Positions 3,499-34,124 of a DNA stretch of 64,000 bases are shown here, one piece after another. A model generated the notes under the pieces. The model searched no databases. It was given only the letters and a program-made list of their open reading frames with translations, and had not been told where the DNA came from. This stretch comes from Ricordea florida (Eukaryota; Cnidaria; Anthozoa; Corallimorpharia; Ricordeidae). The stretch is taken from assembly GCA_949710005.1 (NCBI GenBank), contig OX453281.1:29568339-29632338 (forward strand). The letters are read 5' to 3'. How positions within the stretch are numbered: the first letter of the stretch is position 1; the number at the start of each line of letters is the position of its first letter. A program made the position numbers and the translations under genes.

Positions 3499-6400
3499 AT
3501 GGAGTCGCCTTCCGCTGCTGTTTACCTACAAGATTTACAATCAGAGATACCTGACGGAATTCCTGCCATTAGCGAGGATGAAAGAGCATTTCTTGATGCT
3601 GTACGTGAGAGTGACATTAGCGCTGCACGCTCGTACATTTTGGAGAAACGGGTAGATATAAACTGCGTCAGTTTGTTGGGGGAGACTGCGCTTCAAATCG
3701 CCGTCAATTACGACCGCCCTGAGATGGCGAAGTTCCTTCTTCAAAACGGTGCAGACATGGGAACTGCTCTCTTGCAGGCTGTGAACAAGAACGCCATCAA
3801 CTGTGTTAAAACCTTACTGGAGTTCGTGGATGATCGGCAACAAACCGAAAAGAACCGTTCTTCAGATGACCTTCGTGTTGAGTATAGAAAATACATTTCC
3901 CCTTTGATGCTAGCAGCAGAAAATGACAACCGAGAACTCATTAAGCTACTTCTATCATATGGTTACACTATTCCCGATCCGCCGCAACACGATCGTTACT
4001 GCGATTGCGAAGAGTGCCTACGTTTAGGGCAACGACTTGGTACCTCACTGTTCCGTTTACATACATACAGCGCTTTAGCCAGTCCCGTTTTCTTATGCCT
4101 TTCTTATTTGTTTGCATTATCTGAATCCTCAGAGTCGGGAACAAGCGAAGGTCACGACATAAACACTTCCAAAGATCCTATAATCAGAGCTTTCCTTTTG
4201 AACAAGAAGTTGGAGATGCTGATGGAGACAGAATACGAATTTAGAAGCGACTACAAGAAGTTGTCAAATCGCTGTGAAGACTTTGCAGTGTCCATTTTGA
4301 CAGAATGCCGCTCCATGGAAGAAATTGGTTGTGTCATGAGTGTCCCAGGGATTGATAAGTTGCACCACATGGCCGTCAGTGGAGCCAGTGGGGCGCAGAA
4401 GCTAAGCGTACTCAATTTTGCGATTGCTAACAAAAATGAAAAGGTATTCTTTCCAGCCTAATAATTATTATACCCTGATTATTTTATGGTTGCTTGAACA
4501 AAAACATCGTTAGTGAGTAAGTTATAATTTCGTGGCAAGGTTACGTAGATTTGCTCTTTGCGCTTCCTTCTCCATCAGTAAAGAGTGTGCTGACTTTGTA
4601 ACAGTAATGATCAAGGAATGATTTCCGCACAGGTCCCTACTTCATTATGCATTCTGTAACTATATTATTTCGTTCTTCGAACACAAGAAATATTTGCACG
4701 TGCATTACACCAGACAAGACAGCTTCAGCATGCATAATGAGTAGGGACCTGTACGGAAATCTTACCCTTGATAACATAGCGATGTTGAAATTTCATCAAT
4801 TGCTGGAAAGTCTAATATTGCGTTCATTTCTACCTCAAAATGACAAGATGATAAAATATCCCGTTACGTTTAGCAGCGGAATACGTTCCTACCAACTGTA
4901 AAAAGGGTCAACATGACAAAGTAAGATGCAAATTTATACCTGGCAAATTAAATGCAAAACAATAGGTGAACAATAGTTCAACTCAAGGTCAAAGACGCTA
5001 AAATAAATTGCTTTGTATGCGGAATATCTAATGACTTCATCCGTTTGAAGCTAAAGTTTGTCTTTCGGGCTTGAAGTCTCACTAAGTGAGATTAAATTCG
5101 TCCACTGTCATGTAGCTGAGTTTGCTTCTGTAGTTTTCCATTCTAAAAATGACGTAGCGGATGCCCGTCAAATGACAACCAGACTGACGCGGGTGTTTTG
5201 ATCATGGAATGATTTCCGCCCAGGTCCCTACTTCATTATACATGCTGAAGCTGTCTTGTCTGGTGTAATGCACGTGCAAATATTTCTTGTGTTCGAAGAA
5301 CGAAGGAGTATAGTTACAGAATGCATAATGAAGTAGGGACCTGTACGGAAATCTTACCGTTATGAAGTTCTATGCTCTAGTTGAAAGATTGAAAAGTTTT
5401 CAACCTGAGTACAGTATTACGTTTTTATATCCACGTAACCCATTTTACAGTCGATAGAACATATGGAGTTTTGTATGGCTTCACTGAGCAAAAAACGTTT
5501 CAGTACGGACAAACATTATTTGGTTATCAAGCAGTGAGGTTGAACATGACGACCAGACAGTGTTCCTTGGCAGCTGTCAGTAGATTCTGTTTGTGAATCC
5601 ATGTAGAATTTTCGTCTAAGCTTACCAAGAGAACGTCTTCCAACTTGTCTTTAAGAATTTCTTAATAACATTTCGAGTAGTGACAAATTTCTCACCGGTG
5701 GGGTGGGGTGTAAAAAGGTACAGTTCATTTCATTCCGGGCTTTCCATCGAAAAACCTTGAATGTTGCCGTTAAACTTTTCCGTTCCCAAAAAAGGAAGCA
5801 GCGAAACAAAAAAGAATTTAAATAAGAGCACTTTGCTATGTTAAGTTACAGAAAAATGATATTTTGGTGAACCCGACCTAGGTTTGGGGTTTCACTTGGA
5901 TGGAAAAACCGTGTGAAAATTACTACTACTGCTGCTGCTGCTGCTACTGCTACTGCTGCTGCTACTACTGCTACTACTACTGCTACTGCAATGCTGCTAC
6001 TGCTATGCTACTGCTACTGCTGCTGCTGGTGCTGGTGCTGGTGCTGCTACTGCTACTACTACTGCTACTGCTATGCTGCTACTGCTGCTATTGCTACTGC
6101 TACTGCTGCTGCTGGTGCTGCTACTGCTATGCTGCTGCTATGCTACTGCTATGCTACTGCTACTGCTGCTGCTGCTACTGCTAATGCTTCTGCTGCTGCT
6201 GCTATGCTACTGCTATAACTACTACTACCACTACTACTACTGCTACTGCTATTCTGCTACTGCTGCTACTGCTATGCTACTGCTACTGCTACTGCTGCTG
6301 CTGGTGCTGCTACTGCTATGCTGCTGCTGTGCTACTGCTATGCTACTTCTACTGCTACTGCTGCTACTGCTACTGCTACTGCTGCTGCTGCTGCTATGCT

Positions 6401-9223: not shown

Positions 9224-9282
<59 letters not shown>

Positions 9283-12200
9283 GCTACTGCTGCTACTGCG
9301 TCTTAAATAGTGTATTCGGCGTGATTAATTTTATCCCAAACGGGCGACTACACTCACTGGTATCTTTTCTTTTTCTTTATTGTTATTATGTTTTTGTACG
9401 CAGTTTGTGGCGCATCCTTACAGTCAGTTGATGCTTAATTCAGTGTTGTACGAAGGTTTTGGAGGATGGGAAAGTCTTCGATTTCCTACCAAGTTACTGT
9501 TCGGATTGTTGTATAGTATACTGCTACCCCTGTTGGCATTTCTTTACCTGGTTGTACCCAACTGCAGAGTGAGCTTGTCTCTCAGAAAACCCTTATTCAA
9601 GTTTTTTAGCCATTCGAGTTCATTTTGCTGGTTTCTCGCGCTACTGGTTTTGTCTTCTCTCCAGGACAAGTTCGTTAATGTGCTCCAGTTTTCAGTTTTT
9701 GGTGAGTGTCATCCTATGGTTTGTTTTTGGTTTTTGTTTTTGATTGAACTTTTAACCATTTTCAGTACAGAGCCAAACCTGCAATCATACAGTGCGTTTC
9801 TAACTTTAAGCCCTTTCATTCACAAAGTCAAACCTTCAGTCATTTAGTGAAGTTCTTACTTTCAGCCCTTTCATTCACAAAATCAAACCTTCAGTCATTT
9901 AGTGAAGTTCTTACTTTCAGCCCTTTCATTCACAGAGTCAAACCTGAAAACATACTTGGGAGCTGTAGCTTTTAACGCTTCCTCTCGCAGTAAACCTTGA
10001 GTTATAAAGGGAAAACAATCCAAAAACTAAAACTAGTTTTGGCCTGTTAAATAAGTTTGTTTCACTGCACTAGTATTCTGTATGACCCAATGCAGTCTTT
10101 CTTTTTGCTTATTTTGCAGCAGCACATCTCGTTGCCGTAATAAGCGTTTTTTTTTTGTTCTTCTGTTGCTCACTAGACATCTTTTTGGCGCTCTGGATTG
10201 CCGGATTGCTTTTTCAAGAAGCCAAAGAACTTTATCGTCAGGGAAAAGAGCGTTACTTTTCACAGTTCTGGAATATTGTATCGCTATTAATGTTAAGTCT
10301 GTTCGTGCTATCAGGAGCTCTCTGGCTCACTGGTTACGTGTTAGTCGTAACTGACACTGGAATCTGGAGCGTGCCTATTAAAGCCGTATTTGGTACTAGC
10401 GCGGAAGAGTCTGCGTACCGCCTCATTCTGGTTTCCAATGGACTGTTCGCCCTCGGTCTGGTGTTGAGTTTTTTTCAGGTATCAAATTTGTTCCAAGTCA
10501 GTTCCGTGCTGGGGCCGCTTCAGCTGTCGTTAATCAACATGATGCGAGATATCGCCAAATTTTTGTTTCTTTTTTTGTTGCTATATCTTGCATTTGGTTG
10601 GGCGGAAAGAAAAGTTTATTCACAGTACGTACAGACGCGGGAAGTGTTTGTAGGAAACGCCACTGAACATGGATTTGCCAAGTAAGTCTCGTTTTGGTTC
10701 ACCACAAGTTGTTTCTTTTTTCCTTTGTTTACTCGTTTTGTCACCAATCGAAGAGAACGTGAAGAGTGCAGTGGTGTTTAAAACAGGACATACGGTGTTA
10801 CGTTAGCAGATATCAACAAGTATTCTACAAGACGAATCGAATAAGAGCCGATAACTCTTTTCGTGGAACGATGAAAACTGAAGTTCCGGGGAAACACTCT
10901 CGGAGATTCTGTGCGTTCCTCGAAAGAAACCCCACCTCTTTGACTGGTCGGTCCAGTTTCCAAGCCCGTGTTTTATCAGGCCATAAAGCCTGTGACACAG
11001 TATTTTTCCGTATGTCTCTTGTTATTTATGTGATAAAAGAAAGAATATCGATATGCTCGGGCTTTGTAGCATGATTGAAAACTTGGAAATGTTTTAAATC
11101 ACTTGCCTATCGAATCGTGATTCTACACTTGAAGCTTGTCTCGTGGTTCTCCCCGCATTCCGCCTGGTGTAATTGCGTTACAAAGTGCTGAGATGTACTC
11201 TGTTGTTTGAATCATCGAGCCTTGCGATTCCCAATATGGGTTTTAAGTGACGCAGCAATGTATTATCATTGCACCCCTCTCCTCCTCAAAAGGTGACGCG
11301 TTCGTGATAGAAATCCGCTGGGTGATGTGAGTGCAGGCGCAAAAGACTTGGGCTCAATCGGCAGCATTTTTTCTTGTGCCTGCACTTTATTAATCACCCA
11401 GCGGATTCTCCCTGCACCGAAAACCTTTCCGAGCCTTTGCGGAGGAGACAGCCCTTGCTCTGATTTCGCTTTTTGGTTTGTGTGCTTCATTGCTTATCAG
11501 GAGCGCATAATCCTAGTTTGTTTTTTATGCAACTGAAGCAATTTTTTTCTTTTTTTTTTAGCACCGCAGGCGTCCTACGTTTCTTGTTCTGGGATTTATT
11601 TGGACTCTCTGAACTGGATAAGCTGAAAACTGACGAGAATTTCATTATAACTCAGTACACGGGCGAAATTCTACTTGCTCTGTACAGCATTGCATCTGTT
11701 ATTGTGGCTATTAATATGCTGATTGCAATGATGAGCAACTCATATCAGAGAGTGGCGGTAAGTGAAGTTAGTTTCTGCTGTTAAGTGGAAATAAAAAAAT
11801 ATATGCAAATAACATGAAATGCGAGCGATAAGCGTTTGCCGCGAAAATTGCCACAGGGGTCTCGCCCTTTGACAAGATTATGACACTTTCCTAGTTTATT
11901 AACTTTATTTGAAAATACGTTTTTTTCTAAATAATTCGGGAGCTTTTTGAGATTTTCAACACAAAATACTAACTTAAATTTTGTCAAATAAAAGGAAAAA
12001 CGATTTTTTGGGCCTCTGAAGGTGGGAAGTAACCTTAATTATTCATATTGGTTTGTAACTGTAAGCAAATGCACCAACAGTCAGTCATATCCATGATGCA
12101 CCCCAAGTAGCTGTCTTTCACAACTAACTTCTCGGTTTTGATTCTTACTGCATCCTCGCTCTCTGCTTAACTCAAACTGTACCAACCCTCTCTTCTGTTT

Positions 12201-12901
12201 TGACACTAACTGAACCACCCTCTCTTCCGTTTTGATTTTTATTGCACCACTTCTCTCTTAAGTTTTGATACTTACTGCACCACCCCTCTCTTCTGTCTTG
12301 ACACTAACTGCACCACCCCTCTCCTATTTTCACACTAACTGCACTGCGCTTTTTCTTTGTTTGATAATAAGTGCTCCACCACTTTCTCTATTTTTGACAC
12401 GAACTGCACGGCGCTTGCTCTTTCCAGGACGACGCTGACATCCAATGGAAGTTTTCCAGGACCCGGATGTGGATGCAGTACGTGGATTCTGGGAGTGTCT
12501 TGCCGCCACCGTTCAATCTCATCCCCCCACCCCGCCTCTTGATCCGTTATGTGAGGAGACTTTTCGCAGGGCCCGTCAGGGTAACTCAAACCTTAAAATA
12601 ACTGACAGCTATGTTAATCATTTTATCTCTGTTGTAAATATTTATATGCACCAGTCGCTGGCCAGGCACTACCAAGATTTTAAATGTTTTTAACTATAGT
12701 CAATTTACTTAAGAGGTAATTAATGTAAATTCATTTTACTTTTTGGTTAAAATCTTACTGTATATTTTAAGAGTTTCAATTGTAGCTGTATTTTGTAAGT
12801 GATGTTATTCTTATTTTTATACAGTTTTATCCATTTGTAATCATCTTTACACGACCCCACAAGCTTTGAGCTTTAAACCATATCGTTTTTAAATAAAGGA
12901 T

Positions 12902-12941
<40 letters not shown>

Positions 12942-13921
12942 CCATCCTTGATGTCAAGATGTTAAGAGAATTAAGCAAAACTTTTCCGCGGTGACATTGT
13001 TTGCAGGAGAGTTCTAACGACTCAATGCTAGTGAATATTTAAGTCCTTCGTCAAATCTTTGAAAATTATACTAAAAAAAGCCATATGATAACATTGCTTA
13101 TGTTTACATTTCACTCTTTTTCGGTTGAGAAACGGACTTACTTTGTTTGGTTTCTGTTGTAGGGCGGTTGTTGCGGTGACCACCGTCGATCCCAGTCCAC
13201 GCGGTTAGAGGGAAATGTGGACTTACAGCGTGTACGTATTGGGGGATTTAACCCTTTCATTCCCAGATGTGATCAATATACAACTTCTCCTTACATTATC
13301 AATACAATACAAAGAAAACTGATGATGAGAATTGGGCAGGTGATCAACCCGAGGATATTGACCTCATTTGATGGCAAATTCTCCAAACTGTTTAATAAGG
13401 ATGTGTATGGCTCTTGTTAAGGAGAATTGCTCTTTTGATCTTGGGAGTGAAAGGGTTGACGTTTTCTTTATGTTTTCATTGTATAGTTTTCAATTGGAAT
13501 TATTCTCACATACGTCATGAACATTTAATATCTTGATATTCATGACGTATGTCAGAATAATACCATGCATGTTATTTATATCCACATTTGTTTTTTTTAT
13601 AAACTGGATTTATTTTTAGGTGCTTGATCACCACATTAAGGGATTTCTTGCTAATAGCTTGTGTCCATTCGTTGAGTCGCCATCGTATTAAAATCCTGTT
13701 GTTTTCGTCTTTTGATTCAGCGCACTAACATCATGAGAAGCTTGATTCACCGTTACCTATTCACTCTAGAGAAGTGTGGGACACAGTCTCAAACGTCTTT
13801 CGAGTCCCAGGCCGACCTCAGTCAATTGAGAGACTTGATAAACCGGATACAAGTAATGCTTCAGCAGAGAAATGGCGGGAAATCTGCTCCAGAGAAAGAG
13901 CATGCAAAGACATATCTGTAG
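3499..13921 (+). CDS. TRPC-like cation channel, gene A of a tandem trio
   Basis: Seven exons join in frame: 3499-4443, 9404-9701, 10177-10681, 11562-11757, 12428-12580, 13163-13231, 13721-13921 (788 aa). All junctions have AG/GT and matching phases; exon 6 is least certain. Order: ankyrin repeats (about 25-155); zinc-site motif H164, C168, C170, C173; the TRPC N-terminal TRP_2 domain (ALASP near 192-196, then helices ending EEIGCVM); six membrane segments in exons 2-4; pore LFWDLFG; S6 with NMLIAMM; TRP box QWKFSR followed by LPPPFN, the TRPC signature; short C-terminal helical tail. TRPC channels are tetrameric, Ca2+-permeable, non-selective plasma-membrane channels acting downstream of phospholipase C; this role here is family inference. 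Intron 1 is about 5 kb and filled with repeats. The start is the first Met of the open exon, before the ankyrin region. Confidence 0.92.
4615..4766. mobile_element. MITE family B, copy 1 (interior in reverse orientation)
   Basis: Terminal inverted repeats contain AGGTCCCTACTTCATTATGC and, at the other end, its reverse complement leading to GGAAATCTTACC. The interior is the exact reverse orientation of copy 2 at 5206-5358, while the outermost bases of the two copies match in direct orientation. Lies in TRPC-A intron 1. Confidence 0.9.
5206..5358. mobile_element. MITE family B, copy 2
   Basis: Same ends as copy 1 (left GGAATGATTTCCGC, right CGGAAATCTTACC) with interior GCACGTGCAAATATTTCTTG in the opposite sense to copy 1. 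The 31221-31373 copy has the same interior orientation as this one. Confidence 0.9.
5920..6519 (+). repeat. CTG/CTA trinucleotide array, about 600 bp
   Basis: Nearly uninterrupted CTG, CTA and occasional CTT/GTG triplets on the TRPC-A sense strand, in intron 1. All three frames are open over long stretches (poly-Leu, poly-Thr/Ala, poly-Cys/Tyr), which is a composition artefact. Followed by a degenerate repeat containing AGCGACCACC strings (6530-6700), similar to the sequence just before the second array at 9103. Confidence 0.97.
6903..7354 (-). pseudogene. HIRAN-like domain fragment, frame-broken
   Basis: Two adjacent minus-strand reading frames (7354-7169, then 7142-6903) together resemble one domain: RGYHIYKD, then [18 protein letters not shown], then after the frame change [10 protein letters not shown] and FLKRR. 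The pattern GYxxY, EPxxxxD, AVAVV, VGHxP is that of HIRAN-type domains, which occur in many uncharacterised and transposon-borne invertebrate proteins. Stops separate the halves, so this is a dead fragment inside TRPC-A intron 1. Family assignment is from pattern memory and only moderate. Confidence 0.45.
7590..7940 (+). pseudogene. possible transposase C-terminal remnant
   Basis: On the + strand an acidic stretch ([13 protein letters not shown]), an in-frame stop, then [20 protein letters not shown] and, after another break, [15 protein letters not shown]. Acidic DDEDDLF-type tails followed by a short helical segment are common at the ends of pogo/Tigger-type transposases, but no catalytic core is present here. 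Weak call; it could be any decayed repeat-borne ORF. Confidence 0.3.
9103..9305 (+). repeat. second CTG/CTA array
   Basis: About 200 bp of CTACTG triplets turning into pure CTA at the 3' side, 98 bp before exon 2 of TRPC-A. It immediately follows GGTCGCTTACGAGAG, part of a dispersed repeat whose relatives lie next to the first array. Confidence 0.97.
9782..9952. repeat. minisatellite of about 60 bp, 2.5 units
   Basis: The string AGCCCTTTCATTCACA recurs three times, with CAAACCTTCAGTCATTTAGT between, in TRPC-A intron 2. No other feature seen in that intron. Confidence 0.88.
11312..11407. repeat. short inverted-repeat element in TRPC-A intron 3
   Basis: AATCCGCTGGGTGAT at 11312-11326 is matched by its reverse complement at 11393-11407; an inner GCAGGC/GCCTGC pair extends the hairpin. 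The rest of this intron (10682-11561) shows nothing recognisable. Confidence 0.8.
12120..12420. repeat. degenerate pyrimidine-rich tandem repeat before a splice acceptor
   Basis: Units of roughly 40 bp of the form CTCTCTTCTGTTTTGACACTAACTGCACCACC in pieces, decaying from copy to copy, run for 300 bp right up to the acceptor of TRPC-A exon 5 at 12427. The true polypyrimidine tract looks like the last unit of the array. Confidence 0.8.
12700..12945 (+). repeat. probable LINE 3' tail ending in (GAT)n
   Basis: AATAAAGGAT followed by about 13 GAT repeats, preceded by non-coding sequence. This is the usual look of a 5'-truncated non-LTR element with a microsatellite tail. No ORF supports it, hence moderate confidence. 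In TRPC-A intron 5. Confidence 0.45.
13248..13457. mobile_element. MITE family C, copy 1
   Basis: Terminal inverted repeats TTAACCCTTTCATTCCCA and TGGGAGTGAAAGGGTTGA. Inserted 16 bp after the donor of TRPC-A exon 6. Relatives at 13948-14409 and 52491-52707. Confidence 0.75.
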
Positions 13922-13947
13922 GCTGTCAGTATTAACTGTTGCTGTCT

Positions 13948-14409
13948 TAATCCTTCACTGCCAAGATCTGAGAAGCAATTTTCTCAAGCGACTGCCATAC
14001 ATTTGGTTTTAAGTTAGCTTAGGGACGGACCATTAGAAAAGTGATGGGGGGGGGGGAATTTTCAGCTTGCACGAATTTTTTTTTCGCTCACTGCTTGTGC
14101 AGGAATTCTTTTTTTCAGGTGAACCCCTCTGCATGAATTTTTTTTTACCTTCTTCTTTGCATGAATTTTTTTCTTGGCCTTTTCCCTTGCATTAATTTTC
14201 TTTTGTTTTGTTTTTTCCCACCCCCCCCCCCATCACTTTTCTAATGGTCCGTCCCTTAAGTAGAATTTAGTGTCAGACAGGAGCCCATCAGATCAATTCA
14301 CAATGTCTGAGTTGATCATCTCTGTGATTCTCATTAACAGTTAACCATTCATTTCATTGTTCTTGTATGGAGAAGTTCCATGCTGATCACTTCTGGGAGA
14401 GAGGGTTAA
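13948..14409. mobile_element. family C repeat, copy 2, split by a family A MITE
   Basis: Matches 52491-52707 on both sides of the insertion at 14022-14255: before it, CTGAGAAGCAATTTTCTCA and TTGGTTTTAAGTTAG; after it, TGTCTGAGTTGATCATCTCT and CTTGTATGGAGAAGTTCCAT. Hence an older element interrupted by a younger one. Confidence 0.9.
14022..14255. mobile_element. Harbinger-like MITE, copy 2 (TSD TTA), nested
   Basis: Ends GGGACGGACCATTAGAAAAG and reverse complement; target duplication TTA at 14019-14021 and 14256-14258. Interior opposite in sense to copies 1 and 3. Inserted in the family C repeat. Confidence 0.93.
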
Positions 14410-14436
14410 AGATTTGAGTAATAACAGAGTAATGAG

Positions 14437-21700: not shown

Positions 21701-24700
21701 TCTCAAACTCCTCAATAATGCACAAAGGACGTCAGACACCGTTACGTGTTTGGATATCTGATTAAACACGGCTCGTTGTTACATCGTTAATTTCTCTTCT
21801 AAATAATTTCATTCGAGAAGCTATACCAAACACTCAATATACGTGTTTAATCACATATCAAACACCTCGAATTTCGCCAAAAACACTCCGCTGCACGTAC
21901 TATTTTCAGTTATCTTCTCTGTGTTTGATATGTGACGAAACACTGTTTCTCGTGTTTGATATATCACTTAATATGGAACAGCGTCGGTCTGTCTATCTTA
22001 CAAAGGATAGTAGAATAGCATTCAGATAGAGAATATGACCGTGTACAGCCAACAGGCAACAACTGAACATGTTCAGGATCTTCATGGTTTTATAAGTAAT
22101 ATATAAAAAAGCGAGATAGAGTATTTCATCGCATAACAAACACCGAGAAGAGAGTTGAAAATACGGGGAGCAGCGGCGTATTTTTAGCAAAATTGGTGGT
22201 GTTTGATATGTAATGAAACACAGGTATCAAGTGTCTGATATAGCTTCTCAAACAAAATTATTTGGAAAGAGAAATTAACGATGCAAAAAGAGCCGTGGTT
22301 CATCTGATATCCAAACACATCACGGTGCTTGATTTCCTTTGTTTTTCCTTTATGCATTATTGATGACTTTGAGAAGTACTTTTCAGACATCCAAACACGT
22401 CACAGTGCTTGATTTCCTTTGTCTTTCCTTTATGCATTATTGATGAGTTTGAAAAGTACTTTTCAGACATCCAAACACGTCACAGTGCTTGATTTCCTTT
22501 GCCTTTCCTTCATGTATTATTGATGAGTTTGAGAACTTATTGTTACAACTCGTTTGACAGTCTTAATTTTTCTGCTTAAATTCCTCCACTGATGCAGCAC
22601 CACCTTCTTTAGAAATAGCCCCATTACTGGAAACTGTAAGATCGTTTTCCAGATGATCGACATAAGAAAGCCTTCCTTTACGGTTCCTTGGGAAAAGGAA
22701 ATATTATCTATTATTTTGGTGGGCAAGTCCTGGTTTCTTCACGGAGATTTGAAGAGTAAACGTTACAAAATAGTCTCATGTAAAGTTGGCAGTAAACAGT
22801 CGGTACAGTGTACAGTGTACTTGAATAGTGTCACAGGTGAGAATGTGTTACTTGTGAGTGATAGTATAATGTTACAACTGTTTATAAAGCTGAAAGTGGT
22901 ACGTACGTCGTAAGGAGTCCGGTGGCTGCGGGAGGGGGGAGGGATAACCAGAAGCATCGATGTAGGGATGGGAAGAGTACTCTCAGGTCCTTGATACTAC
23001 AGAATCAGAATAAGCTCTTGTAATGTTTGCTGTCTTGCAGATGTTCTTACCGTCCTCTGGGTCACGGGTCTCATCTTTGAAGAAGCTAAGGAGTTCTACC
23101 GACAAGGCAGGGAACGTTATATGTTGCAATGGTGGAACTTTGTGACATTAACCATGCTTCTTTTCTTTCTTTTGGCGGGAATATTCTGGCTATTAGGTTC
23201 GTCAGCTTTGGTTGTGCAAGATAACTATTCGCTGAAATATATAGTGAGGAGCATTACTCGAGATGACGCGTTTGCTTATTTACTCATTTCAAACAGGTAT
23301 GTAGAAGAAAACCCATACCCCCCTGATCCATGACCATGTGTGACGGTTATTGGCTAATTCATTGGTGGAGGAACGAGCACAACTCTCAAACTAACTGATC
23401 AAATAAGACTGATGAAACCACATGCTGTTTTCTCTGTCTGATCTTCGTTGAGCAGGGTTGGCGCAGTGGTGAGCTCGAGAGCGCTCGCCTTCCACCAATG
23501 TGGCCCGGGTTCGATTCCCGGCCCCGGCGTCATATGTGGGCTGCGTTTGTTGGTTCTCTACTCTGCTCCGAGAGGTTTTTCTCGGGGTACTCCGGTTTTC
23601 CCCTCTCCACAAAAACCAAACATTTGATTAATTCAATTAAATATGGTTTGATTTGATTTGATTTGTGCTTTACAGTGTCCCCAATTAGTACGTCAGTGCT
23701 AGATACAGTTGACACTCAAATAAAGTTCATTATTATTATTATTATTATTATTACTTTACTTGATACTTTTCATCGCGTGCTTTTCAAAGTTTTGCTGTAA
23801 TATTGTACAGTTAATACTATAAAATACTTTGTGTAGATTTACATGTTATTTAAAAAACCCTCACCCATCTCTGGTTTTCTCTCTGCAGCTTATTCTCCAT
23901 GGCATTTCTTGTCAGCTTCTTTCATTTGTCCAACTCTTTCCAAGTTAACAGTACCATTGGTCCTCTTCAGCTGTCGTTAATGAAGATGTGTCAAGATGTC
24001 GGCAAGTTCTTGGTGCTATTTTTGGTGGTGTTTCTATCATTCGCCATGGCCATTCGCAAAGTCTATTCCCAGTTTGAGCAAATTGTTATTTTATATCCTA
24101 AGATGGTTTCACAAAGATCAGGCCCTCACGTTTACGCTGGGTAAGTAAAGCTGTCTCCGACCTTGAGTAAACAAACCAGAAATTAAATATAGCTTCTGTT
24201 TGCGCAGGCGTATAGCAGAAACCGAGAATTGAAAGTACAAACACGAGACCAAGCGACACCGAGTGTTTGAACCTGGTCGAGCCTTAAGTGGTCAAGAGGT
24301 CTGGGATAACTGTCCATGATCTCAATGATTTCCAGGATCTAATCGGTGATTCTTTTTCCAAACTAACCACCATGAGAAGACCCTGGGAACGAGGTTGAAT
24401 AACGCCATTTTGCATTCACCTTAGTCCTCTTCGGATTTCCTCATCCAATATGGTGGCTTCATTTTCAAATATGTTAAATAAATTAACTGGATGTTACATC
24501 GTCTTTACTCTATTTCAGGGTCGCTGGTGGTCTTAGAATGCTTTTCTGGGCACTGTTCGATCAGACCGATTTAGAGTCATTCGAAATTCCATCGAAAACT
24601 TTTATCATCACACAGAGGACAGGAGAAACGCTCTTCGCAATCTTCTATGTGGTGGCCATTTTAATCTCCCTCAACATGTTGATCGCCATGATGTCAAGTT

Positions 24701-26338
24701 CATTTCAGCAAATCGCGGTAAGCGCAAGTTTGTATCAGTACAGGTTGCCTAAAATCATTATTACAACATTATGGCGTTTGGGGATGATTCCCTTACTGTT
24801 CCAGCTTGTACATAGAATAATAAATAAATAAATCCAAAAATACTTTTTTCTCAGAGTTCCTCAGCTGAATGAGCTTGTCAGCTTACGATACCATGACCAT
24901 GTTAAAGTTTGAATCCTATTATTAATATCTGCCGCTCCGCGTATTTATATGATGCTGTTTGAACTTCCGAAGTGGATATTAATTCTTTTATCTTTTTGGC
25001 GAATTCGACGTTAATTATTTGGCAAATTAGATGCTAAATATAGCTTGTAAATACGCGTAGATACAAGGTTAATTGAAAGTACATTTGAATGTTTTTAGGA
25101 TGATGCGGATATTCAGTGGAAGTTTTCCCGGACCGGTATGTGGATGCAGTTTGTTGACAAAAGGAAGTGTTTTACCTCCTCCATTTAATCTTGTTCCAAG
25201 CTGGAAGTCTGTTCTCCAACTGTTTGTGTGTTGTTTCGACTGGATCAAGTCTAAAAAGGTGCCATTTTAACCTTATTTCATTTTCTTCCTCGTCCGTTTT
25301 TATCGCGTTCGTGGCTGTTAACTTCTTGTCTCGTAGCTTGTTGTAAAGTTTCCCAGCTCCTCTGTTCTCTCTTTCCCTGCTTAGGCTTCTCGTTCTCTTT
25401 CTTTCCTTCTTACGTCTTTGTAAATATTTGAACCGCTGAGCCTTTTCATAGTCGGCATGGGTTGAGCGTGAATTTCATTTGCGCACTGATATTTAACTAT
25501 TTCACCAACAGAGACAGAAATATACTGATCTGGACTTGAGTGAAGTAGGTGAAGAGGAAGATATAGACCTGGCTCAGGTATTTTATACATGATTTCAAGA
25601 TCATTAGCAAAACTATAAACCATCACTGAAAACCTGAACTGAACAGTCGTCTAGTACTGGTACCAGTCTCTTTTACGGCCGTTACTTGGTTTCTCGCGCA
25701 ACGCTCCTCCTCAACGTTACTTAACAAGGCGTTGCGTGAAAAGCCAAATATAGTTTCGTTGGTTTCAAAAGAATTTCCAAATTATATCTTAGTGTGGAAA
25801 GAGTGGATTTATCACGCTAAGTCAATCGCAAGATGAAAAATGCCTTCAAAGGAAATGAATCTAGTATTGATCGACTTGTAATTTGCTTGTAATTTTTCAG
25901 CGGGAGGAAGTTATCAAGACTCTTATTGACCGCTATTTCTTCAGTTCACGGCAAGCAAGGGAAAGAAAACTTCTTAGCAGTGCTTTGAAAGTTTTTAATG
26001 CTGGCAATCAGGTAACTTCAGTAAAAGATGTCATTAGATTTTTGCTGTTGATAAGAGCAATTTTTCAGTGATTGCCTGGTGATTTCGCGATTGCCTTTGT
26101 GTTTTGCTTTTAAGGAAGTCTGCCTTTGCATCGTAAAATATAACCTTCATCTACCTTTGCGCCGTTGCAGTCTCCTCTGCAATAGCCACAGTATTCCCAT
26201 AACAGCTTGTATTACTATTAAGTTAATTTGTTACAGGGAGATGTCACATCTGGTGGTACAGGTGCAAACACTTCCACAGAGTCAGAAGAAACACCGCCCC
26301 AGCCTTCTGGCTGGCTGGCTCGGCTGCAGCAGAAATGA
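15797..26338 (+). CDS. TRPC-like cation channel, gene B, with a one-base frame break
   Basis: Nine exons: 15797-16546, 21355-21658, 23041-23296, 23889-24140, 24519-24717, 25099-25258, 25512-25577, 25901-26011, 26237-26338. Homologous exon by exon to genes A and C, except that the S2-S5 exon is split by an extra intron (23297-23888, holding a SINE). Exon 1 keeps the zinc-site motif (H100, C104, C106, C109) and TRP_2 domain but lacks about 65 residues of ankyrin repeats. Pore LFWALFD has Asp where A and C have Gly. S6 reads NMLIAMM; TRP box QWKFSR. In exon 6 the AAAA run near 25159-25162 carries one base too many: the frame then ends at a TAA about 8 codons later, whereas the next frame continues [12 protein letters not shown]. 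Every other junction is in phase; without that base the gene would encode 732 aa. Either a real lesion, a strain-specific allele or an assembly error. Confidence 0.87.
16700..20445 (+). mobile_element. CR1/L2-like LINE (non-LTR retrotransposon), decayed, in TRPC-B intron 1
   Basis: Coding sequence runs 16771-20220 in three frames with two frameshifts (near 17405-17415 and near 18387). The first part has a hydrophobic N-terminus, the motif GDVCPNPGP (17110-17136), then the apurinic endonuclease domain (GHSNVRGL, ISETHL, GGVAIYS; after the shift VGCVYRPP, VVIAGDFNSD, then an IADHK motif). The reverse transcriptase has ASGPDGIS, NYRPISLLS, FIDFQKAFDTV, GVPQGS and catalytic YADD (19342-19353), then a C-terminal region to 20220. 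A 153-bp insertion with target duplication interrupts it at 19129. The 3' end has AATAAA and a (TATG)n tail at about 20408-20437. The 5' limit is approximate. Same strand as the host gene. Confidence 0.93.
19129..19281 (+). mobile_element. 153-bp insertion in the LINE, 15-bp target duplication
   Basis: Flanked by CTATACACCATATAT at 19114-19128 and 19282-19296. Removing insert plus one duplicate restores continuity between the GVPQGS and YADD parts of the reverse transcriptase in the same frame. The insert opens with a hairpin module (CGACGAAGGGCTAACGCTCG then AAACGTCAGC) and ends AGAAACTATCCCCA. No poly-A or coding capacity. Relatives at 2944-3085, 22545-22620, 46945-46995 and 56205-56300. 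Confidence 0.92.
20990..21310. repeat. dispersed inverted-repeat element
   Basis: Contains GGCTGCATATTGG and CCAATATGCAGCC as inverted arms, together with CTTTGCGTTTTTAGTGACC and its near complement, and repeated CTTGACCTCAC strings. A relative with CTTTGCGTTT and GAGGCCAATATCC lies at 38730-38850. It ends about 40 bp before TRPC-B exon 2. Confidence 0.65.
21690..22540. mobile_element. long-armed foldback element with 80-bp triplication
   Basis: Left arm 21690-21895 and right arm about 22178-22385 are imperfect reverse complements over roughly 190 bp (left: GTGTTTGGATATCTGATTAA, ACATCGTTAATTTCTCTT, GAGAAGCTATA; right: the complements). The outer part of the right arm, containing GTGCTTGATTTCCTTTG and TATGCATTATTGATGA, is repeated three times with a period of about 81 bp to 22540. 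In TRPC-B intron 2. Confidence 0.85.
23455..23755 (+). mobile_element. tRNA-derived SINE with (ATT)n tail
   Basis: Pol III A box TTGGCGCAGTGG (about 23457) and perfect B box GGTTCGATTCC (about 23508) in a tRNA-like head, a unique body containing AGAGGTTTTTCTCGGGGTAC, and a tail of ATT repeats at 23728-23755. Lies in the intron that TRPC-B has and its paralogues lack. Not a functional tRNA: no proper acceptor or anticodon stem. Confidence 0.85.
25660..25760. mobile_element. small MITE family D, diverged copy
   Basis: Inner TCGCGCAACGCTCC and GGCGTTGCGTGAAAAGCCAA correspond to the inner arms of the 38867-38982 copy. In TRPC-B intron 7. Confidence 0.55.
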
Positions 26339-27028
26339 TTCAAAAACTCAGTTCACTTGACTTATAACAACACCTTTGATTAAACGGCGTCCTCTTCATT
26401 TTATCTCTCCCACTGTTGAAGAAGATGTAAACTTAAAGAATCAAGTAGTAATAAACAACTGTCACTTAGAAAGCGTTCTTTGTTTTACGACCTCCTATAA
26501 GAAGCCATGCCTGTTTGGTAAAAAGCGACTTCGTATTTATTCTGCCCTGAATTTTTGGACCTTGCGAGTGGGCGCTCATTCGAGGCTGTGCGCCTTTTAA
26601 AATTTCTATTAATTTTTTGCGACTGAATGAGCCTCAAGTCCACATGGAAATTGCAGTTGAAACTTAGAGTGGGGAAAATTCCAACATTCTCATAGGGTCA
26701 CAAAACGGGTTTATCTTATGTTACTATGACCACATGGAATCAAGTCATTTAACGAGTGCAATTTTCGTGAAATTTGTCGTGGGGCGACGGATACTTTGAG
26801 ATTGAGGACTTTCAAGAGTTGAAAACGTAAGCAATGGATGTTTATACACAATATCGATCGATTCGCGGTATGTTTATAATTAATTGAAACAACACATTAG
26901 TCAGTCAGCTGTGAACATGACAGATACGCAATACCGATAAATTACGGAAACACACCAACACATCAAGCAGAATCAAGTCGTACGTCAATTGCCTCGGGTG
27001 AGAATCGAACACGAATTCTCTGCTTTTA
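26339..27028. other. intergenic region between TRPC-B and TRPC-C
   Basis: Only 690 bp. An AATAAA occurs at about 26447, a possible poly-A signal for TRPC-B. No gene or recognisable element. Confidence 0.45.
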
Positions 27029-30000
27029 ATGGCTAGTTCACGAGTTTCTGTTTCCTCTACGACAGACGAAATAGCAAACAGCCCTAATGTTCTGTTTTCG
27101 CCGCAAGCAAGCTCAGCTTCCTCCATTGGGTTGGAGGATATGGAAGTGTTTACAGATTCTGAGCTGTGTTCGCTGAGTGAAGACGAAAAAGAGTTCCTTG
27201 AGGCAGTTCGTCAGAGCGATGAAGCGAAAGTCAAGAAATGCATTGTTGAAAAGAATGTGGACGTTGACTGCAAAGATTCTGGTGGAGAAAGTGCACTTCA
27301 AATAGCTGTTGAGGCAAAAGATTCCAAAATCATTTCAATTCTGCTAAAACATCGTGCTGAGACGGGCAATGCGTTGTTTCAAGCGGTGAGAAATGGCTGC
27401 TTGCAGTGTGTAAGACTTTTAGTGGCCCATGATACAAATAGAAAGACCTCTACGGCAGTGCCACCTGGGAGAACAACTGGCACAACAGGTAGGGGTGGCT
27501 CGGGAAAATTTGATGAATTTTTGACTCCGCTTACCCTGGCTGTGCTGAATGAGGACCATAAAATTGTGGAATTTCTTTTAAGCAAAGGATACAAAGTTGA
27601 AAAGCCTGACATCGCACAGAAAACTCACAAAACCAGCACAGGAACAGAGAAAGAATCTATGACAATGTCCAGTCTGAACGATTCTGTGGTAAAATTGAAT
27701 ACTAACCGTGCTCTGGCCAGCCCTTTGTATCTGTCGTATTCCTTCCTACAAGAGAACAAACAGTTGGGAACAAAGACGACACCTAGCGACCCGATTTTTG
27801 GCGCCATTATTCTGAAAAAGAAGTTGGAAGATCTAGCGGAGATTGAAGACGAATTCCGTGACGATTATCTGGCGCTGTCGGCACAGTGCGAAGATTTTGC
27901 CGTTCGCTTATTGAACGAGTGTAGAAACCTGGAAGAGATTGCAGCCGTTATGGAAATGCCGGACCTGGATGGAATGAGTGAAGGACACTTGAAGGGGAGG
28001 GAGAGGAGACTGCGTGTCCTTCAATTTGCAATTAAATGTTACAACAGAAAGGTAAACAAAATTAACATTTTATTAACTTTTTGGAGGTAGATTCTTCACA
28101 CAAAATAGCGACTCTAAAAATACGTCTAAGCATAGCAAAAGATTAGACAGGGCTTGCATAGTTTTAAGATTTTAAGATGCATGGAGAATCTGAAAAGTTC
28201 TGTTCAGTAGAACAGTACAAAGAATGATCATAGTTTGATTCATAGAATAGAAAGCCACAGCCATACAAAGCAAACAATACCCGCCCTTTTAGTAGCTTTC
28301 CCGGCAAAGAATAGTCACACTGTATGGTTTGATCCACAGATGAAAAAGTTAGAACCACACTGTATAGTAAAACAAACAGTACCACAGTACAGTACTGTTC
28401 ACTAGTAGCTTTAAAAAGAATGGTCACACTGCATGGTTTGATCCACAGATGAAAAAGTTAGACCCACACTGTATAGTAAAACAAACAGTACCACAGTACA
28501 GTACTGTTCAGTAGTTTTACAAAGAATGGTCACAATGCATGGTTTGATCCACAGATGAATTAGTTAGAGCAACACTGTATAGTAAAACAAACAGTACCAC
28601 ATAATAAAATTGTTCAATACCTTAAGGTCATAGGAAAATTCTTTCTTCTTTGATCCACTAAACAAGTGTTCAGTATCCTCGAGTAGTTAACCTATTCTTT
28701 TTTCACTTTATTTTATGTTTGTATTATGGTAATTTAAACAGAGCTTAAAAGTTTAGAATGCAAAATTCAGTAGAGCATGCGTATTTTATATTAAAGTTGC
28801 ACATGTCTTGTTGCGTCTATGTTTCTTGTAATTGAGAATTTTGATGAAAAGAACGTTAACACTATTTTCTAACAAAGAATGTTGCTGTTCAAAGCACACA
28901 GGTTTTACGTCATTAACGTTAAACAAAAGCACAATAATAAGCCTTATTTTGTCAGAAGTTATTTACGTAAATACTGTTAAAGACTTACGATATATTATAC
29001 AATGTGAAGACCAATATAACGCACAAGCGGTCGGATATCGGCGATTTGTTTTGGTCCCAAGTTACGTTACTTGACGACAATAAGAAGAGAATCACCAAAG
29101 CTATGTTTTTACCTTTTTGCCACAAGGAAATTAAAACCCACGGTGCCACCAAAGAGCTTTATAACATTAAATTCTAGAAAACAGTATAATTCACAGTTCA
29201 CTGTTTTCCCGTTTATCTCTCCGTTACAATTTTAACTTGAAACTTTTGATTGCCATTTTAACTCAAAGTATCTTTGTCCAACGTTTTTTTTTGTATGTTC
29301 TGTTGTTTATAAGTTGGGCTTCGAACCATACCGCGGGATCATACAACAGCAGTTATGTCTCCTTTTGTTAATCCACCTTGTTCACGAAGTTGTCACTTCG
29401 TCCTCTTACACTTTACACTGGCGCGGGCTGACAGCTGGGTTGGTTTTGCCCCACTCTCATCCTCGTCAGTGGTACCGACCATTCTTCCTTACTTCTCCCA
29501 CTTTATGCCCTATGAAAAATTTTCCTTTAGATTAGCATAGAGTTATAAGTCATAGATTGCCTGTTGAGGGGCTGTGAATATAATACAATCTAACGTGTAT
29601 TGTATTTTATATTTAGTTCCTAGCTCATCCGTACAGCCAGGTGATGTTGAACTCCGCTGTCTACCGTGGAGCCCACGGTTGGCACCAACTGAAATTTCCA
29701 ATCAAACTTTTGTTGGTCACCTTGTATACGTTTGTGATGCCACTATGCATGCTGGGATACATACTTCTTCCAAAAAACCGTTTCACAAAAAAGTTTGAGA
29801 TACCGCTGGTCAAGTTGACGAATCAATCATGTTCTGTTGTGTGGTTCCTGCTTTTGGTGTCTCTGTCTGCCTTCCAAGACAAATACGACACGTTTTTTCA
29901 CTTATCGCCAGTCAGTAAGTTCTAGTCACGGTAACCCTAGCTTTATAGGGCCTAGAGTAAATTCATTTGATCCTGAATTAAGTAAAATTCCCCTTTTAAC

Positions 30001-33000
30001 AACTTTATTGCAGTTTCAAATGAAATAATTTCTTGTAGGAAGCGTGGCATTGAAAGGAGAGGAACTGATTGCCGTGGTGGATAGATCTCTGAAAACAAAC
30101 CTTTCTTTTCCAGTCTCGACTGGTTCCTTTGACTTATGACTGTCTAACAAGTCCCATATGAATCTCAAAATGAGCTGAGCAAGATGCAGTTTCCAACTTT
30201 GAAGAAAACAAGGAAACGATTAGTCTGGGATCGCGTCTAAAAACCCTCAAATCTGATCACTTTAGACCATTAGAGATGACCGGGTGATAGGGGACATCGG
30301 AACTGTATTCCTATCTCCATGGGGACACGAATTCCCCTGTGGGGAAAACCCGGGAGGAGTAATATTCCCGATCATCTCTACATTATTGTATTAATTAAAG
30401 CAAAAATTGTTATCTTTGTGGATCTGTAAATAGAACATGCTGGGCTATGAGTTTGACTAAGGTCTTGTTTTCGTATGTTTTTTTTCCCTTCGCAGATGTA
30501 TTCATCGCCATTTGGGTGGTGGGAATTACAGTTCAGGAGGTTAAACAAGTCCTTCACCAAGGAATAGAGCGATATTTATCAGAATGGTGGCACCTGGCTG
30601 TTCTTCCTATGATAGCATTTTATATCATTGCCGCTGTTCTATGGCTTGTGGGATACGCCTTCATCGCTATAGACGCAGGCTCATGGACCGTGCATGTCCG
30701 TGATATCCTGGGTTCTACTTCACTGGCTCCTTACCAACTTATATTGCTATCAAACAGTTTTTACTCCTTCGCCTTAGTGTTGACGTTTTTTGAAGCATCG
30801 CATGTCTTGCAGGTGAATTCCACTCTGGGTCCGCTTCATCTTTCCCTCATGAATATGGGGAAGGATATTTTGAAGTTTTTCGTTCTTTTCGCGTTAAACT
30901 TCCTTGCATTTGCTCTGGCCATGAGAAAATTGTATTCTCAACATGTGCAAACTACTGGGAGACTGACCTCTAGTAATAACAATGGTACCACAACACACGC
31001 GTTTGAAAGGTATGATATGTAGAACTCTATATTATGTTTACTTTCCCTAGATTTCCGTTTTTTCTCGTGCTTCATTATGCATGCTGTATAGCTATGAGAT
31101 CTAGACTTATTCATGTGCAATATTTCTTGTTTCAAAACCGACGAAATATTACGCCTATGGCAAGTATAAAGAGGAAGACGGTGATATAGCAATTTGGCCT
31201 TTAACGTTGTACCTAAATAGATTGGTAAGATTTCCTGACAGGTCCCTACTTCATTATGCATGTTGTCAAGTTGAATTGTCTTAGGAAGTGCGCGTGCAAG
31301 CATTTCTGAGAACGAAAACGTACGGCTACAGCATGCATAATGAAGTAGCGACTTGTGAGGAAATCTTACCAATAGATTTAGGATTTTCGTTTAATGTAAC
31401 TTAGTCCTCTTTTTTGTCATTTTCGTTACCACAGAATTGAGGGGACGTTTAGTACATTATTCTGGGCGTTGTTTGGACATGTGAATTTCGAAGAATTCAA
31501 GACGAGCGAGGACTCAGAGATCACTTCCACCACTGGAGAGCTTTTGTTTGCATCGTACACCTTGGCCTCTGTATTGGTTGCTCTGAATATGCTCATTGCA
31601 ATGCTCAGTAACACCTTTCAGACAGTTGCGGTAATAACAACTTACAATGGTAATTTTACGTAAAAAGATAACTGCATGGTCTTATGATATGGGTTTATTG
31701 ACTTGCAGGACGAGAGAGATATCATGTTCAAGTTTACACGGACCCGTATTTGGATGTATTACGTCAGTGAGGTCAGCCCTCTTCCGCCGCCATTTAATTT
31801 GATTCCTGTTGATAAGTTCAGCGCTGCATTGCGCTGGCTCGCCAACAGATGCAATTGGATCGGAAAGGTGGGGAACAATCAGGTCTGTGTCTTATGCGAA
31901 CAGTGACATTAGCGGCCAAGAATCAGCTTACATGTCCCGGCATGCCGTGAGGCAATGTCATATCTCTTAAGTTCTAAATACATCAACTTTGTCCCAGTCC
32001 CTTTTCATACACCGTTTGTATAGAAAGTTGTTGTCCTAAGTGTCATTTTCCACATAAATGGTCGCAGAGAATGCTAAATTTTCTTCCTCTGTGTAACTAT
32101 GTCGCCCTTTGATCAAGAGAAACAGACTTCAGTATAACATTAATAAGGAAATGTTATGCACTCCCGCGATCAGTTGTCGGTTATTGTTCTTTTTTTTGGT
32201 TTTCCCTGATCTGTTTTTGCTCACTGGCGAACGTGAACAGTGGCTTACGAAAATTCAGGGACTAAAAACAGATCAAGCAAAACCAAAAGAAAGCTGAAAA
32301 TATATCAATAAGGATGATATCATATTAATTTGAACACAGGTAAAAAAGAGTTATTGATTGATCTACACTGGTAAAAAAGAGTTATTGATTGATCTACACT
32401 GGTAAAAAAGAGTTATTGATTGATCTGCACTGGTAAAAAAGAGTTATTGATTGCTCTACACTGGTAGAAAAGAGTTATTGATTGATCTACACAGGTCGCA
32501 CAAGAAACAAAAATACGGTACAATTCCACCATTTTTGTCCTTGTAACATGATTGTAAATATTCAAACTAACTCAGATTTACTTTTACTTCAGTGCCTTAC
32601 TTGCATTAAAACAGAACAAGGGACATTCGCTCAAAGGCAAAGGAACGAGATGAGAGTGAGTAAATTGATGGTTTTTTTTTCTATTGTTCTTTCAGAAGAG
32701 CAATTAAAACTCTGATCCAGTGGCTTTCATTAACTTACAAAATTCAAAGTAAATGTAGACTGTTCCCATTCTTACATTTCTCCGAATTTTTGCTTAGTCC
32801 TTGAACTGGTGAAAAGGTGCACCCAAGCGCCTCAGTTCTCTTCACAGCGGAATAAACCTCTTTAAAGCAGATATCCCAGAATTCACCAGGGCACTCAGGA
32901 GATGATAACAGTTCTAAATAGGCGCGATTAGTATAAATACTCAGGTGATTATACAAAATCGAGCGCTCTGATTGGTTCGCTGTCTAGGATTATCAGCCGA

Positions 33001-34124
33001 TAATCACCTCGACGAACAAAATGGCTGTCAGTCGTTCGCGCGCTTTGATAAAATAAAATTTTTTCGTGTTGTACAGTGCTTTTTCTTTTCTTTTTTTTGA
33101 AATAATCACCTGTGTATTTATACTCAAAACAATTATTCGCCTCAGGCTCAGTGATTATCGGTGAATATTCAACGATAATTACTTCGGCTTCGGCGAATAA
33201 TTGTTAATTAATACTTAGCTATCTAAAATATTCACTTGGCGCTTCTCCGTTTATTAATTTGTTGTATGAAATCTTTTAGCGCCGAGCTGTCATCAAGAAT
33301 CTTGTCCATCGATATTTTTCGGAAATCAAGGCTTCAGAAGAGAAGGAAGATGTCCTCGAGGAAGCACATTCACAGTCAGACCTAAAGATAAAACTGAAGG
33401 AGGTGGAGACATCCCTACAGGGTTTACAGAATACTTTGAAAAGTCTTCAACAGTTTATTCCCAAGGTAAAGGCACCAAATGCCAAGCCTGCAAATAACAA
33501 GAGATCTTTGCACAACAGACAAAAGCAACAGACAAGAAAACCAACAGTTTATTAATAGCGTCTCTCCAACAGATGACAAACTGAAATTTGCTTTCTATTT
33601 TTATAACTTGACAGGCTTAAAATATTGCACAACAAAATCAGAGGACAAGAAGAACATCAGTCAATCAATGCCGCTTTCGAAGACTTTCAATCCTCCCATT
33701 CCTATTGTTTCCTCTCTAATTGGTTACAAATTTAACTTTTTGGAATAACTTGATAGGTTTATTATGAAAATATAAATAACCGATGAAGGACCAAGGTCAG
33801 TTAAAACTGTGTGGGAAATTAATCATTCATTTTAGGCAGTTTAATTTACTGCGGCAGGATCCTTTATAATTGCACGCATGCCTTATCAACAATTTCTTAA
33901 GATTTCTTAGATTTCTTTTAGTAGAAGTGAATTGTGTTTAACTGACTTGTCGCTTTAATCGATGTTATTCGGCCAAAATGTAATTTTTACTATGATTCAC
34001 ATTCTGTTTATCATTTCGTAGATTTGGTTCCTGTTTAGCGGTGTTTATAGCTTAAGTATTACTTGTTGGTCTTCTGCAGGAAAAGAAGGATAGTGACTCG
34101 GAGCCACGAGACAAGACTCTCTGA
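27029..34124 (+). CDS. TRPC-like cation channel, gene C, lacking the zinc-site motif
   Basis: Eight exons join in frame: 27029-28051, 29617-29914, 30496-31009, 31435-31630, 31709-31867, 32593-32655, 33280-33465, 34080-34124 (827 aa). Exon 6 (21 codons, between CTTCAG and GTGAGT) is placed by phase and by analogy with genes A and B. Ankyrin repeats occupy about residues 50-190. The TRP_2 domain starts RALASP at 227, but the HxxxCxCxxC motif of A and B is replaced by a Ser/Thr/Lys-rich linker (about 194-218). Six membrane segments; pore LFWALFG; S6 NMLIAML; TRP box MFKFTR then LPPPFN. Exon 7 encodes a coiled coil (DLKIKLKEVETSLQGLQNTL), typical of the TRPC assembly region; the protein ends EPRDKTL. 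An AATAAA follows at about 34400. Expected role: Ca2+-permeable plasma-membrane channel (family inference). Confidence 0.9.
28190..28610. repeat. 106-bp satellite, second locus, about 4 units
   Basis: Same TGGTCACACTGCATGGTTTG and AGTACAGTACTGTTCA strings as the array at 641-1433, in the same orientation, in intron 1 of TRPC-C. The first unit is strongly diverged. Confidence 0.93.
28611..29616. other. remainder of TRPC-C intron 1
   Basis: AT-rich intronic sequence; nothing further recognised. Confidence 0.4.
31221..31373. mobile_element. MITE family B, copy 3
   Basis: Terminal repeats ATTGGTAAGATTTCCT and AGGAAATCTTACCAAT with inner CAGGTCCCTACTTCATTATG. The arms may extend to CCTAAAT on both sides. 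A more decayed relative lies just upstream (31065-31150, TTCATTATGCATGCTG). Inserted 61 bp before TRPC-C exon 4. Confidence 0.9.
32339..32514. repeat. 31-bp minisatellite, about 5.5 units
   Basis: Tandem copies of GGTAAAAAAGAGTTATTGAT plus TGATCTACACT, nearly identical, in TRPC-C intron 5. Ends 78 bp before the proposed exon 6. Confidence 0.95.
32935..33215. repeat. inverted-repeat element(s)
   Basis: ATAAATACTCAGGTGATTAT (32934 onward) pairs with ATAATCACCTGTGTATTTAT near 33105-33123. A second pair, AACAATTATTCGCC and GGCGAATAATTGTT, lies at 33129-33210. In TRPC-C intron 6. Confidence 0.7.

Follow-up and report, generated by a model that had tools for sequence, protein, structure and literature searches.

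We show here that positions 3499-34124 hold three TRPC-type genes, A, B and C, arranged head to tail on the plus strand. Probably the three are cation channel genes of the TRPC type that form a local tandem array of ancient origin, a reading that takes in the assembly, activation, copy-specific losses and decay of gene B proposed below. The initial annotation had placed three tandem TRPC-like genes on one strand at these coordinates, with spacers of 1.9 and 0.7 kb, and our models confirm this, the A-B and B-C spacers measuring 1875 and 690 nt. When the whole window, that is, the entire 64-kb stretch of DNA that was analysed, was searched by tblastn (E<=1e-3) using A, B, C and four solved TRPCs as queries, no further TRPC-like match was found outside 3400-34200 or on the minus strand.

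The gene structures were modelled from splice sites and homology. Gene A runs from an ATG at 3499 to a stop at 13921 in seven exons and encodes 788 residues. Its first exon (3499-4443; alignment, Pfam and AlphaFold) carries the start, four ankyrin repeats, the HC3 zinc motif and the linker-helix domain, and is followed by pre-S1/S1 (exon 2, 9404-9701), S2-S5 (exon 3, 10177-10681), the pore and S6 (exon 4, 11562-11757), the TRP helix with LPPPFN (exon 5, 12428-12580), a short linker (exon 6, 13163-13231) and a segment that aligns with the TRPC C-terminal helix region and ends in the stop (exon 7, 13721-13921). If exon 3 instead began at 10120, a start considered by eye, it would contain an insert that B and C do not have, and 10177 was chosen.

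Gene B extends in nine exons from an ATG at 15797 to the last-exon stop at 26338. Exon 1 (15797-16546) encodes ankyrin repeats 1 and 4 only, the zinc motif as HPRSCECVNC and the linker helices; pre-S1/S1 (exon 2, 21355-21658), S2-S3 (exon 3, 23041-23296), S4-S5 (exon 4, 23889-24140), the pore with LFWALFDQTD and S6 (exon 5, 24519-24717) and the TRP helix (exon 6, 25099-25258) come next. Exon 7 (25512-25577) is open in phase 0 and, as assembled, out of frame with exons 1-6, exon 8 (25901-26011) holds the REEVIKTLIDRYF segment, and exon 9 (26237-26338) supplies the last stop. Intron 1 contains a degraded non-LTR retrotransposon with endonuclease and reverse transcriptase pieces (16753-20220, plus strand), and the intron at 23297-23888 a tRNA-Ala-like stretch (23452-23529); for RNA families there was no Rfam match at gathering scores.

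Gene C, from an ATG at 27029 to a stop at 34124, has eight exons and a product of 827 residues when one candidate small exon is included, or 806 without it. Ankyrin repeats 1-4 (by alignment) and the linker helices lie in exon 1 (27029-28051), pre-S1/S1 in exon 2 (29617-29914), S2-S5 in exon 3 (30496-31009), the pore with LFWALFGHVN and S6 in exon 4 (31435-31630), and the TRP helix with LPPPFN in exon 5 (31709-31867), for which a second donor at 31883 appears possible by eye. The candidate small exon (32593-32655) is the positional counterpart of exon 6 of A and exon 7 of B; after it come a next-to-last exon (33280-33465) with RRAVIKNLVHRYF and, judged by eye, a coiled-coil-like segment, and the last exon with the stop (34080-34124). 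The small exon of C, like the C-terminal splice choices, is a guess from splice sites.

All 21 modelled introns of the three genes have GT-AG borders. The six introns of A are in phases 0,1,2,0,0,0, and the same phases recur in B and C, where those of B after exon 6 are taken from the exons' own open frame and the fifth and sixth matching introns of C depend on the candidate small exon. An extra phase-2 intron between S3 and S4 (23297-23888) occurs in B only, and an extra phase-0 intron near the C-terminus is common to B and C. Local duplication, as originally proposed, is well supported by the exon-by-exon homology, the shared introns and the placement of all three copies on one side of a 100/100 branch. 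The short B-C spacer of 690 nt might instead point to a single complex locus whose first exons, shared or alternative, are joined by splicing to one channel body used in common. However, a start, an N-terminal exon, a pore and C-terminal exons are found separately in every copy, and AATAAA or ATTAAA is present in all three spacers, although such hexamers are common by chance; we consider this arrangement very improbable.

Protein identity between the copies is 38-49%, and their fourfold sites are only 25-28% identical (28/101, 31/126 and 25/88); therefore the copies are ancient and not haplotigs. The same order, strand and structure would also be expected if haplotigs or collapsed alleles had been placed end to end in the assembly, but with such protein identity, saturated fourfold sites and blastn similarity between copies confined to short stretches of exons and a single repeat that introns have in common, this explanation is barely credible and, for the array, in effect ruled out. 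Only the one-base break in B could still be such an artefact.

The ranks of the PDB matches rule out another TRP subfamily: the best TRPC matches reach 7.2e-104 for A, 2.9e-74 for B and 1.3e-84 for C, versus 3.5e-18, 4.1e-15 and 6.5e-21 for the best non-TRPC TRP. The copies are thus not spread over unrelated TRP subfamilies, the outcome that the initial annotation had named as speaking against its reading. The TRPC matches cover A and C almost from end to end, and B from residue 73 onward. Pfam TRP_2 (PF08344) is matched at 51.7, 48.3 and 28.9 bits in A, B and C (cut-off 27), and NCBIfam TIGR00870 (trp) over much of its length at 349.3, 279.7 and 313.9 bits, below a cut-off of 498.75 that serves for naming in a library built for genomes of bacteria and archaea and was not taken as defining. 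LFW in the pore helix is a TRPC signature, and it is found in all three copies; the TRP helix is followed in frame by LPPPFN in A and C, and in B by a segment in another frame. Weak NCBIfam matches of A and C to bacterial ankyrin proteins fell far below cut-off and were judged to reflect ankyrin repeats only, and alignment of exon 1 revealed no relatives among 578 pattern matches in viral contigs or 150 in prokaryote contigs.

Nearly the whole of A is covered by TRPC4/TRPC5 structures (PDB 5z96, 7x6c and others), with which its ankyrin repeats, linker helices, LFW pore helix, TRP helix with LPPPFN and C-terminal helix segment align. Yet A, B and C are only 31-35% identical to TRPC4/TRPC5 and all lack the S3 aspartate; other differences from TRPC4/TRPC5 are the absence of two ankyrin repeats and of the filter glycine in B and of the zinc motif in C. 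TRP-gamma (PDB 9vqq) and human TRPC6 (6uza) have the same architecture as the three copies at 28-33% identity. In a tree of seven rows (A, B, C and four bilaterian TRPCs) without outgroup, TRP-gamma and TRPC6 group with TRPC4/5, and the three copies are separated from the four bilaterian proteins at 100/100 support. Because identity to the latter is only 28-35%, the array may belong outside the crown of the TRPCs.

At the N-terminus, the two losses described in the initial annotation are borne out. Against ankyrin repeats 2-3 of A, only 14 of the 73 residues could be aligned in B, 2 of the 14 being identical, so these repeats are missing in B, whose Ank_2 score is 16.1 bits (cut-off 27.3). The HC3 zinc motif, HxxxCxCxxC, is present in A, in B and in all four solved TRPCs of the set, and is absent from C in the alignment; C has Pfam Ank and Ank_2 above cut-off and aligns along repeats 1-4. 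The AlphaFold model of A exon 1 forms four helix pairs, with pLDDT in 10-residue blocks of 79-96 over residues 21-110 and 73-84 over 131-160, and of the 225 Foldseek matches (E<=0.001), the 50 that were listed all belong to TRPC chains. The model of B exon 1 is poor (mean pLDDT 42.6) and was not taken to the fold search, and for this reason the two-repeat reading of B rests on sequence. Since repeats 2-3 are missing, we file B only as a TRPC-derived copy.

In the membrane domain, conservation of the pore and TRP box, as first claimed, holds for the sequences of A and C but not for B, in which the filter glycine is replaced by aspartate and the reading frame of the TRP-helix exon is broken. Pore and S6 are better kept than the linker helices in two of three pairs (A-C 54% vs 43%, B-C 48% vs 41%) and slightly less so in A-B (48% vs 53%). 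Of all the pieces, the TRP helix is the most conserved (17/19, 12/19 and 10/19 identical); alignment of the C-terminal tails is weak. None of the three copies has the S3 aspartate that belongs to the TRPC4/5 cation site (Ser in A, Thr in B, Val in C), and C also has His for the S3 asparagine; the columns align to TRPC5 residues 418, 421, 436 and 439, which are the cation site named in the available portion of PMC7987348. The same portion describes a TRPC5 triple mutant of this site that is not activated by extracellular calcium. By analogy, the missing aspartate predicts weaker or absent activation of A, B and C by calcium itself, a prediction that leans on the triple mutant and not on the aspartate alone.

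The TRP-helix exon measures 160 nt in B versus 153 in A and 159 in C, and the frame of B is lost at, or close to, the run AAAA at 25159, after about codon 608, so that B ends at residue 616. The in-frame stop at 25186 lies 70 nt before the end of exon 6 with three more junctions downstream. Under the nonsense-mediated decay rule, a transcript of this kind should be a target. Inspection by eye revealed no splice that would skip the break in exon 6. Being frame-broken as assembled, B may be a degenerating gene, or there may be an error in the sequence. The exon length, the stop and the unusual filter aspartate would all suit a young pseudogene, in which the one-base break in exon 6 has only recently disabled a paralogue that is old and was functional. 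However, exons 7-9 retain an open frame in phase 0, a TRPC-like segment persists in exon 8 (9/23 residues identical to C and 5/13 to A), no second lesion was seen in the other eight exons and no splice site is lost, and a sequence error or polymorphism would also explain the break; we give the pseudogene a real chance, somewhat short of even.

By homology to TRPCs, the full-length products, namely A, C and, if its break is not real, B, would assemble into tetramers, alone or mixed, of subunits with six predicted transmembrane helices, an LFW pore helix and a TRP helix. Such channels are predicted to open downstream of phospholipase-C-coupled receptors and to let calcium and sodium enter, with a cytosolic assembly and docking surface that is altered copy by copy, through the loss of repeats 2 and 3 in B and, in C, of the zinc staple expected between ankyrin repeat 4 and the first linker helix. 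B as assembled would end just after the TRP helix; this truncation and the expected decay of its transcript make it probable that B is a copy in decay or a polymorphic one, unless an error in the sequence accounts for the extra base.

The initial annotation had also suggested a division of labour, in which three working channels each have an N-terminus tuned to its own partner or cell type. The lost blocks do differ between copies, A and C are least alike in ankyrin repeats 2-3 (27%, 20/73, versus 39-54% elsewhere up to S6), and all splice sites and the other eight exons of B are intact. Moreover, G-alpha-i3 binds the ankyrin edge of TRPC5 in the part of PMC10156788 at hand, and by analogy the loss of repeats could change docking. 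Against this, B is frame-broken as assembled and its filter departs from the usual one, and A-B identity outside the lost blocks is similar in the linker helices (53%) and the membrane part (47-51%). In addition, mutating the three zinc cysteines of human TRPC5 left activation by calcium and englerin unchanged, according to the accessible text of PMC7987348; as these cysteines were dispensable there, zinc loss in C need not alter gating. We therefore regard a division of labour as rather unlikely.

For the tandem array that we favour, a nearby parallel is the TRPC family reported with extra copies in the stony coral genus Montipora (HOG0002487; PMC9145168, available in part). That is a TRPC expansion as here, although the word 'tandem' does not occur in the main text as available, and its orthogroup may be a different one. 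No tandem TRPC trio with these losses appeared in titles or abstract starts among the matches listed.

In terms of gene content, the array is a family expansion of an ordinary kind in which some sequence changes are unusual, and if the host is a coral or an anemone it adds to the TRPC expansion reported for corals in the available part of PMC9145168. More speculatively, and in our view doubtfully, the copies could represent a divergent non-bilaterian TRPC lineage without the calcium self-activation site, that is, receptor-operated channels uncoupled from cytosolic calcium, in which B, if its frame is whole, would bring into mixed tetramers an acidic selectivity filter and an ankyrin domain of two repeats. 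If expressed, the three genes would be natural experiments on which TRPC parts are dispensable, among them ankyrin repeats 2-3, the zinc staple, the S2-S3 cation site and the filter glycine.

Three TRPC-type channel genes, A, B and C in order, lie head to tail on the forward strand at 3499-34124. In exon models built from splice sites, A encodes 788 amino acids in 7 exons, B comprises 9 exons, and C encodes 827 amino acids in 8 exons if a candidate small exon at 32593-32655 is included and 806 amino acids if it is left out. The six introns of A (phases 0,1,2,0,0,0) are present at the same phase in B and C, with the phases of B downstream of exon 6 read from the exons' own open frame and the last two of the shared introns in C depending on the candidate small exon. 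In addition, a phase-2 intron between S3 and S4 is found in B only, and a phase-0 intron near the C-terminus in both B and C. In the PDB, A is matched best by TRPC5 (E-value 7.2e-104), and B and C by TRPC4 (2.9e-74 and 1.3e-84), with the best non-TRPC TRP channels far behind (3.5e-18, 4.1e-15 and 6.5e-21, respectively). All 21 modelled introns have GT-AG borders. The three tandem same-strand TRPC-like genes proposed in the initial annotation are real, and its inference of local duplication with shared intron phases was the right reading. Pfam TRP_2 exceeds its cut-off in every copy, and the NCBIfam trp model is matched in every copy, yet under its cut-off. For A exon 1 as modelled by AlphaFold (mean pLDDT 64.7; four helix pairs, at 26-48, 64-82, 90-116 and 135-153), the best 50 of 225 Foldseek matches (E<=0.001) are all TRPC chains; since the overall rmsd is large (14.9-18.5 A), this support is limited to the local fold. 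No further TRPC copy was found in the window by tblastn at E<=1e-3 with the A, B and C proteins and the solved TRPC4, TRPC5, TRPC6 and TRP-gamma as queries.

The copies are old. Protein identity is 49% for A-B (597 columns), 40% for A-C (763) and 38% for B-C (598), and 28-35% between the array and the four solved TRPCs. Fourfold sites are close to saturation, with 28/101, 31/126 and 25/88 shared sites identical across the three pairs, which excludes the alternative that the copies are alleles or haplotigs. A seven-row tree of A, B, C and the four bilaterian TRPCs separates the array as a whole from the latter with support of 100/100; having neither an outgroup nor a named cnidarian TRPC, this tree does not establish a lineage-specific clade. 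TRPC family expansion has been reported in the coral genus Montipora (PMC9145168). A tandem TRPC trio of this kind was not found in the titles and abstract openings among the literature matches listed, which is not proof of novelty.

Tandem repeats of ~106 bp, very similar to one another, lie upstream of A (644-1210) and in C intron 1 (28305-28601). Introns of A (5205-5358) and C (31223-31370) share a short element (74%) that looks like a small mobile repeat and is accompanied by an inverted pair, 4610-4740 with 5233-5363. B intron 1 contains a non-LTR retrotransposon (16753-20220) whose endonuclease and reverse transcriptase fragments have broken reading frames, and the B-only intron a tRNA-Ala-like stretch (23452-23529; single copy in the window at <=3 mismatches), possibly, as a guess, the head of a SINE. 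After C on the same strand follow two Major facilitator superfamily pieces, at 36151-36870 (Pfam 34.4, cut-off 33.4) and 37733-38185 (17.3, under cut-off). Farther along are a 48-bp tandem repeat (42493-42886; 8.2 copies), a minus-strand reading frame with a weak 3'-5' exonuclease domain match (43787-44194; Pfam 21.1, below the cut-off of 23.6), GGATCC/GGATC-rich satellite-like arrays (48722-49324 and 52969-53774) and a rhodopsin-like GPCR open reading frame (61240-62346; Pfam 7tm_1, E 2.8e-27).

The middle copy is possibly a dying gene. Its TRP-helix exon, exon 6, measures 160 nt, versus 153 in A and 159 in C, and the frame breaks at or near an AAAA run starting at 25159, so that the first in-frame stop, at 25186, leaves 616 residues as assembled. 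The exons beyond still have an open phase-0 frame, and a TRPC-like segment survives in exon 8, identical to C at 9 of 23 positions. The break is either recent, polymorphic or a sequence error.

At the N-terminus, the ankyrin block had been considered lost from B. This holds for repeats 2 and 3, missing from within exon 1 (over A positions 62-134, 14 residues of B align and 2 of these are identical), but not for repeats 1 and 4, which B retains together with the zinc motif. The loss of the zinc site from C is borne out by the alignment, where the motif is absent and the ankyrin stretch retained. In human TRPC5, whose zinc ligands are conserved, mutation of three cysteines is reported to leave calcium and englerin activation unaffected (PMC7987348); by analogy, the loss in C need not alter gating. 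The ankyrin edge of TRPC5 is described as the docking site of G-alpha-i3 (PMC10156788), and the repeat loss in B could, we infer, affect such docking. The division of labour suggested in the initial annotation is a possible reading of the differences between the copies. The view that the pore is kept while the N-terminus changes fits only some of the pairs: identity in pore+S6 exceeds that in the linker-helix region for A-C (54% vs 43%) and B-C (48% vs 41%), but not for A-B (48% vs 53%), where, the lost repeats aside, the linker helices are not more changed than the membrane part. A-C identity is poor in ankyrin repeats 2-3 (27%). The best-kept piece is the TRP helix, with 17/19 residues identical in A-B, 12/19 in A-C and 10/19 in B-C.

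Within the pore filter, a glycine reported at 86.3% in a TRP alignment (PMC9242649) is Asp in B. At the S2-S3 cation site, aligned to TRPC5 positions 418/421/436/439, A has E/E/N/S, B has E/E/N/T and C has E/Q/H/V, the Q at 421 being also present in TRPC4 and TRP-gamma. Unlike TRPC4, TRPC5, TRPC6 and TRP-gamma, all of which keep Asp at position 439, the array lacks this cation-site residue in all three copies. In TRPC5, the E418Q-E421Q-D439N mutant is reported to have lost its activation by extracellular calcium (PMC7987348). This precedent covers the triple mutant rather than the Asp by itself; with that caution, the array is predicted to show reduced activation by calcium.
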